The notes under the pieces: generated by a model
What the model was told of the DNA's origin: nothing
The model's database searches: none
The model's input: the letters and a program-made list of their open reading frames with translations, nothing else
Shown here: positions 33,037 through 33,222 of the stretch, piece after piece
How positions within the stretch are numbered: the first letter of the stretch is position 1
Layout: each line of letters starts with the position of its first letter
Origin: Syntrophaceae bacterium
GTDB lineage: Bacteria > Desulfobacterota > Syntrophia > Syntrophales > Smithellaceae
DNA: 49,212 nucleotides
Reading direction: 5' to 3'
Assembly (NCBI GenBank): GCA_003139775.1
Contig: PLGI01000095.1
Span: 1 to 49,212, forward strand
Made by a program: the position numbers and the translations under genes

Positions 33037-33222
33037 AATCCCGCGGTTTGGAATCTCCCGGCTTCAGCCGGGGGAGGAATGCGGTGTAACATGCGGGAGG
33101 TTGCGTTATCCTCTGCTTTGCAGGATAATTCGTCCAGCAAATTTCAGTGCGCTACGCTTCTGAAATTTGCTGGACGAATTATTATAGGGAGCCTTCGGCT
33201 CCTGCCGGAGGGGGCTCCACTA
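33037..33222 (+). repeat. F2 palindromic element, copy B (interrupted by F1 hairpin)
   Basis: AATCCCGCGGTTTGGAATCTCCCGGCTTCAGCCGGGGGAGGAATGCGGTGTAACATGCGGGAGGTTGCGTTA ... TTATAGGGAGCCTTCGGCTCCTGCCGGAGGGGGCTCCACTA. Confidence 0.9.
33109..33181 (-). repeat. F1 hairpin nested in F2 copy B
   Basis: 22-bp perfect inverted repeat TAATTCGTCCAGCAAATTTCAG / CTGAAATTTGCTGGACGAATTA with 12-nt loop TGCGCTACGCTT. Confidence 0.9.

Follow-up and report, generated by a model that had tools for sequence, protein, structure and literature searches.

Hairpin element F1 nested in F2 in a Syntrophaceae genome: occupied and empty copies and the case for F1 mobility

Hairpin elements of the window

We analysed a 49,212-nucleotide stretch of a Syntrophaceae bacterium genome (assembly GCA_003139775.1, contig PLGI01000095.1), referred to here in its full length as the window. 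It contains copies of a hairpin element, F2, with a length of ~111 bp, and two of these, copies B and C, pair with each other in inverted orientation (repeat pairs I2 and I7). Copy B is a 182-bp composite, TCCCGC...GCTCCAC, at 33039..33220 on the plus strand, with edges placed by comparing other F2 copies with their empty sites at the species level. Its F2 5' half (33039..33108, +) consists of a TCCCGC...GCGGGA stem and an inner hairpin followed by the linker GGTTGCGTTA, while its 3' half (33182..33220, +) is the hairpin AGGGAGCC...GGGGGCTCC. Between the halves lies a nested F1 unit of 73 bp (33109..33181, +), made up of a leader hairpin, TCCTCTGCTTTGCAGGA (33109..33125, +), and a body hairpin with perfect 22-bp arms and a 12-nt loop, a form found in B only (33126..33181, +). 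An earlier note on this DNA had described B and C as collinear except for these 73 bp (33109-33181), present only in B after GCGTTA, and the sequence confirms this. The note had named the 22-bp inverted repeat within the insert the F1 hairpin; F1 does stand as a separate element, but the insert also holds the leader hairpin ahead of this repeat.

Copy C lies in frame within an hrpA-type gene (26231..30406, −) for a DEAH RNA helicase of 1391 aa with a DUF3418 domain, which holds two F2 copies. C (29622..29732, −) is empty at the F1 site and adds 37 residues, PARLGIPRLQPGEECAVTSGRSRYYRESPAPAEGCST, to the open 1391-residue frame. The second, diverged F2 (28386..28494, +) is oriented opposite to the gene and adds a net 108 bp, or 36 residues. 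The two copies thus lie in opposite orientations and both keep the frame. The insertion that makes up C measures 111 bp and has one shared base, and seven congeners are empty at this site. Meanwhile, G009 (L091, L073) carries a diverged F2 of the same length at exactly this site, unlike closer relatives of the host, which have none there. This distribution could reflect multiple precise losses of an old insertion, exchange among lineages, or more than one insertion at the same site. When we looked for F2 copies that run through an ORF (40 codons open on both sides), 2 of the 48 paired copies tested did so, both in hrpA. F2 was therefore rejected as a general protein-coding palindrome of the RPE kind.

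A third element, F3, also hosts F1-type sequence. One F3 with an F1-type body inside (32817..32958, −) adjoins B and is absent with it in G010 and G003, which lack the whole F3 plus F2 stretch 32817-33263; a precise empty site of B was not seen. Two further F3 copies, one with a nested F1 unit that carries a loop insert (6086..6263, +) and one with a nested F1b unit (17890..18032, −), both have a clean empty site in G003. F3 insertions showed AAT at both edges in several events, which may be a 3-bp duplication or an end borne by the element. A lone 5' half of F2 was found at 30619..30692 on the plus strand (inverted pair I14; L069 5887-5933). The window also holds other repeats. One family of ~130 bp, GGGCTGTTC...CAACAACCC (11869-12072), has dozens of matches in relatives and is cleanly absent at the orthologous site in G014. 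A further dispersed family, TACCATTT...GAGGCGGC...AGCCGCC... (4900-5126, 19344-19426, 34869-34993 and 36825-36873), has many matches in the genus, and its presence or absence varies by species.

Structure and stem evolution of the F1 unit

F1 is a two-hairpin unit of 71–73 nt in which a leader ending in GGGA is followed by a body of 57 nt, TAATTC-stem-loop-stem-TCATTA, with a stem that covaries. The leader in nearly all occupied F2 copies is TCCTCTGC..GCGGGA; outside F2, F1 has other leaders and often lies within F3. The ends of F1 offer only TAAT/ATTA, a short imperfect pair, and the adjoining stem pair, and the F2 ends, TCCCGC and GCTCCAC, form no inverted repeat. F1-type units occur genus-wide, with exact-pattern matches concentrated in Smithella, a sediment bacterium, and in other Syntrophaceae/Smithellaceae assemblies. 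The same scan also gave non-Smithella names, where single matches could be due to chance or mixed bins.

In an alignment of 40 diverse F1 bodies of equal length, 93.5% of stem cells were paired and 144 double changes were counted; the covariation scored 0.516, compared with 0.177 for shuffled and at most 0.163 for slid controls. Across nine inner pairs in 181 units, we counted 1450 Watson-Crick, 17 G-T and 162 other cells, so that G-T made up 9.5% of the non-Watson-Crick cells against the 18% predicted from column composition. Because the covariation is strong and shows no preference for G-T, these counts favour a fold of DNA, or paired changes introduced by template switching, over an RNA hairpin. 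As a separate observation over the stem columns of 182 units, the written strand shows 49 A-C mismatches against 32 G-T, both far fewer than expected, an asymmetry that might indicate the strand that folds.

The strong compensatory changes of the F1 stem are also what would be expected if F1 and F2 were functional RNA structures, such as terminators, attenuators or small RNAs, held by selection. We regard this as highly improbable, given that close relatives differ in which copies they have, that two copies lie inside a gene, and that nothing in the window matched Rfam at the gathering score. A known RNA family was likewise rejected for lack of such a match.

The exact 22-bp inverted repeat claimed for B was borne out: TAATTCGTCCAGCAAATTTCAG is found at 33126-33147 on the plus strand and at 33160-33181 on the minus strand with 0 mismatches, where chance would give 0.01 matches in the window even with up to 3 mismatches allowed. 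As single-stranded DNA, the 73-nt insert folds at -29.6 kcal/mol (z -11.3), and no shuffled sequence folded as low. This perfection is, however, the exception and does not represent the typical F1 hairpin, as it was seen in B alone among all fetched loci; the right arm of B reads CTGAAATTTGCTGGACGAATTA, compared with CTGAAATTTGGGACTCATTA in the close relative L019. Quasipalindrome correction (PMC8794818) can in one step produce perfect arms, such as those seen in B, and double compensatory changes, which the F1 stems suggest, and from the sequence the palindrome of B therefore looks like a recent product of template-switch correction.

Could polymerase template switching, which is known both to make and to repair hairpins (PMC8794818), have produced all of these hairpins in place, with no transposition? 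The right arm of B, which complements the left arm exactly and differs from that of all relatives, would fit this. Yet units at unlinked loci and in different species agree in sequence, in their 57-nt body length and in their conserved ends, and composites show clean insertion at sites that are unrelated. Switching within a locus creates palindromes but does not disperse one sequence; as a mutation process, correction explains the palindrome of B and not the dispersal of the family. We therefore see very little chance that switching alone is the answer.

Occupied and empty sites

Searched with the region, the host genome gave 58 matches. F2 was also found in G014 and G010, and one copy from G021 was read as well. 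The host genome and three relatives together supplied 72 distinct F2 copies, whose junction states we read by pairing left and right halves. The F1 site was occupied in 44 of the 72 and empty in the other 28, where the junction reads GCGTTA-TTATAGGG. The note would have been refuted had all other F2 copies carried the segment, making C a deletion; with 28 of 72 lacking it, C is not an isolated deletion. Occupied copies share a single exact junction, with inserts of ~70–79, 91–97, 111 or 145–296 bp and one outlier of 362 bp. Since the unit lies at the same point and in the same orientation in all 44 occupied copies, B does not represent one fresh F1 jump, and it most likely inherited its F1 unit within an amplified composite.

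On a tree of the 72 copies, which is built from only 111 columns and has many open forks, occupied and empty states interleave, with 15–18 changes across bootstrap trees. A single clade of empty copies was rejected (AU p 0.008), as was a single clade of occupied copies (AU p 0.006). Because the two classes interleave, F1 occupancy of F2 has changed more than once; the tree shows the repetition and leaves its direction unshown. B groups with occupied copies, while C belongs to a starred clade of seven copies from two species, all empty. The reading of C as the unoccupied site thus holds in that C has no insert and sits among empty copies, but not in the sense of a never-occupied ancestor, because neither class forms a single clade, and some of the empty copies may be emptied ones.

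That possibility can be taken further, to a single ancient entry of F1 into F2 after which all empty copies, C included, arose by precise loss (hairpin slippage) or by replacement when F2 copies recombined. Long hairpins tend to be deleted. Such a history fits the one exact junction and the leader common to nearly all occupied copies, as well as the interleaved states and the F2 that G009 shares at the hrpA site while closer relatives lack it. Against it, all seven members of the clade that holds C, from two species, are empty, and F1-type units have been gained or lost at other sites and within other elements. We hold this history to be possible but rather doubtful.

The case for F1 mobility draws on such other sites. 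In alignments with default gap costs, an F2 plus F1 composite of 202 bp is present in G014 at a site that is empty in G000, and conversely composites of 165–185 bp in G000 have empty sites in G014 or G008; comparing L020 with L263 gives the empty site CAGTCAA|TTACCGC. Orthologous elements also differ in their nested units. Compared with L262 (G014), L025 (G000) has two extra segments, an F1-type unit of 77 nt at ATAATT|CGA and a loop insert of 41 nt; a loop insert of 21 nt is present in L023 and missing from L239; and L216 has an 80-bp F1-type unit at GATAG|TTCG that G010 does not. F2 insertions share 0–1 base at their edges, with no target duplication, and the two F1-type insertions tested showed no duplication either. 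Because F1-type units were gained or lost elsewhere, F1 mobility does not depend on the F2 site, and the comparisons strongly support F1 as a separate mobile element nested in F2. The earlier statement that F1 is or was mobile is accordingly well founded in clean species-level empty sites and in units present or absent in orthologous elements, but not in B as a fresh insertion.

The earlier note had also pointed to TTA on both sides of the insert. The letters are there, but the empty F2 already reads TTATTA, and a TTA target duplication is rejected, as the two orthologous nested sites (ATAATT|CGA and GATAG|TTCG) duplicate nothing. TCATTA is the conserved end of the F1 unit itself, and because no bases are duplicated at those two sites, the TTA at the unit end is assigned to the unit.

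Among orthologous F2 pairs, none was found in which one species has F1 and the other does not. One orthologous F2 in G000 and G014 (L022 1503-1682 and L249 1487-1680) contains different nested units, although an assembly gap cuts the G014 side. In the comparisons of L064 near 1057 with L250 near 1459 and of L068 near 1077 with L266 near 1656, the two species have different hairpin elements (an F1 cluster versus F2) at one locus, side by side and with a common flank, as if this were an insertion hot spot.

Possible mode of movement and comparison with known systems

Drawing these comparisons together, F1 and F2 would be small gene-less mobile hairpin elements. An F1 unit may have entered the AT-rich linker between the two hairpins of F2, and the resulting 182-bp composite would then have spread through the genome. 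Further F1-type units may have entered the linker of F1 itself, with smaller hairpin inserts entering its loop, and such layered insertions would give three to four nesting levels. The elements would move as folded single-stranded DNA through a recombinase acting in trans, with no target duplication and a preference for unpaired AT-rich sites, and pairing in their stems would be maintained by selection for the DNA fold together with template-switch correction. Taken as a whole, this account seems to us reasonably probable. F1 units follow the orientation of their host element in 49:0 cases in F2 and 36:0 in F3, counts in which copies from one insertion are not independent; the single orientation inside F2 is explained in part by descent of the composites from one insertion. 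The nested sites seen occupy either a loop or the linker that separates two hairpins, a placement to which survival bias could contribute.

No mobilising enzyme for F1 or F2 was identified. The host genome has two Y1 transposases, but none was detected in G003 and G008 (98–100% complete), though both have F1-region matches. Around the 30 Y1 loci of the genus, no F1, F2 or F3 end pair framed the gene, with only scattered copies present. A Y1 transposase as the mover is thus unsupported by gene presence or common ends. A phage or plasmid origin was also set aside, as the composite was unmatched in phage and plasmid collections. A bolder version of our account would have self-layering two-hairpin elements that move as folded strands, insert only into the unpaired linkers or loops of others in one orientation and with no target duplication, use an enzyme so far placed in none of the known transposase classes, and renew their stems by template switching. 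We think this unlikely to hold in full.

Known families were compared with F1 and F2 by their described features and not by sequence. SMR-A of Haloquadratum walsbyi is a small mobile repeat that inserts into PATEs and IS605-type elements (PMC3119063). Like F1 and F2, it is short (~110 bp), gene-less and free of target duplication, and like F1, it lies preferentially inside palindromes of other gene-less elements and has no known mobiliser (PMC3119063). F1-type insertions fall in the linkers or loops of other gene-less hairpin elements with no target duplication. However, SMR-A has prominent terminal inverted repeats, unrelated to known transposons, whereas F1 is a two-hairpin unit with the short imperfect TAAT/ATTA, and F1 and F2 differ further in their three to four nesting levels and bacterial host. 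PATEs, palindrome-associated elements derived from IS200/IS605, resemble F1 and F2 in having near-terminal palindromes, no target duplication and too little length to code (PMC3119063), but no relation of the F1 or F2 ends to the host Y1 loci was found. Like the elements described here, the GC clusters of yeast mitochondria are small, palindromic and strain-variable, and they merge and shuffle, with single and merged forms at the same site; they differ in host, in sequence and in their flanking AG or ACT repeats, which resemble target duplications (PMC4478555). Rickettsia palindromic elements recall copy C, with a palindromic element in frame in a housekeeping gene (PMC10969869), but they lie in frame in many genes and encode a peptide, while F2 does so only in hrpA, with 2 copies.

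By these analogies, the closest known kinds are the Haloquadratum SMR and PATE elements and the yeast mitochondrial GC clusters, with the likeness to Rickettsia confined to the hrpA copies. Two familiar classes were rejected. A classical MITE would have the terminal inverted repeats of a known transposon and a target duplication, and F1 and F2 show no duplication. REP/RAYT elements have a fixed GTAG/CGTC foot tag, which is missing here; the positions that read CGAC/CGTC are covarying stem positions, and CAAC, CCAC and CGGC also occur. Literature searches turned up no previous description of these elements in Smithella or Syntrophus, which is weak evidence as literature coverage is incomplete.

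To our knowledge, gene-less hairpin elements are common and their movement is mostly unexplained. Here, a single bacterial genus offers dozens of copies that are empty, singly nested or multiply nested, some of them at orthologous loci, and such copies let gain, loss and the order of insertion be read directly. The window pairs a nested F2 copy, B, with an unoccupied sister copy, C, in a helicase gene. Covariation of the DNA type, together with the one seemingly corrected palindrome, informs how hairpins stay perfect, and the hrpA copies show that a hairpin element can add 37 residues in frame while the helicase gene stays open.
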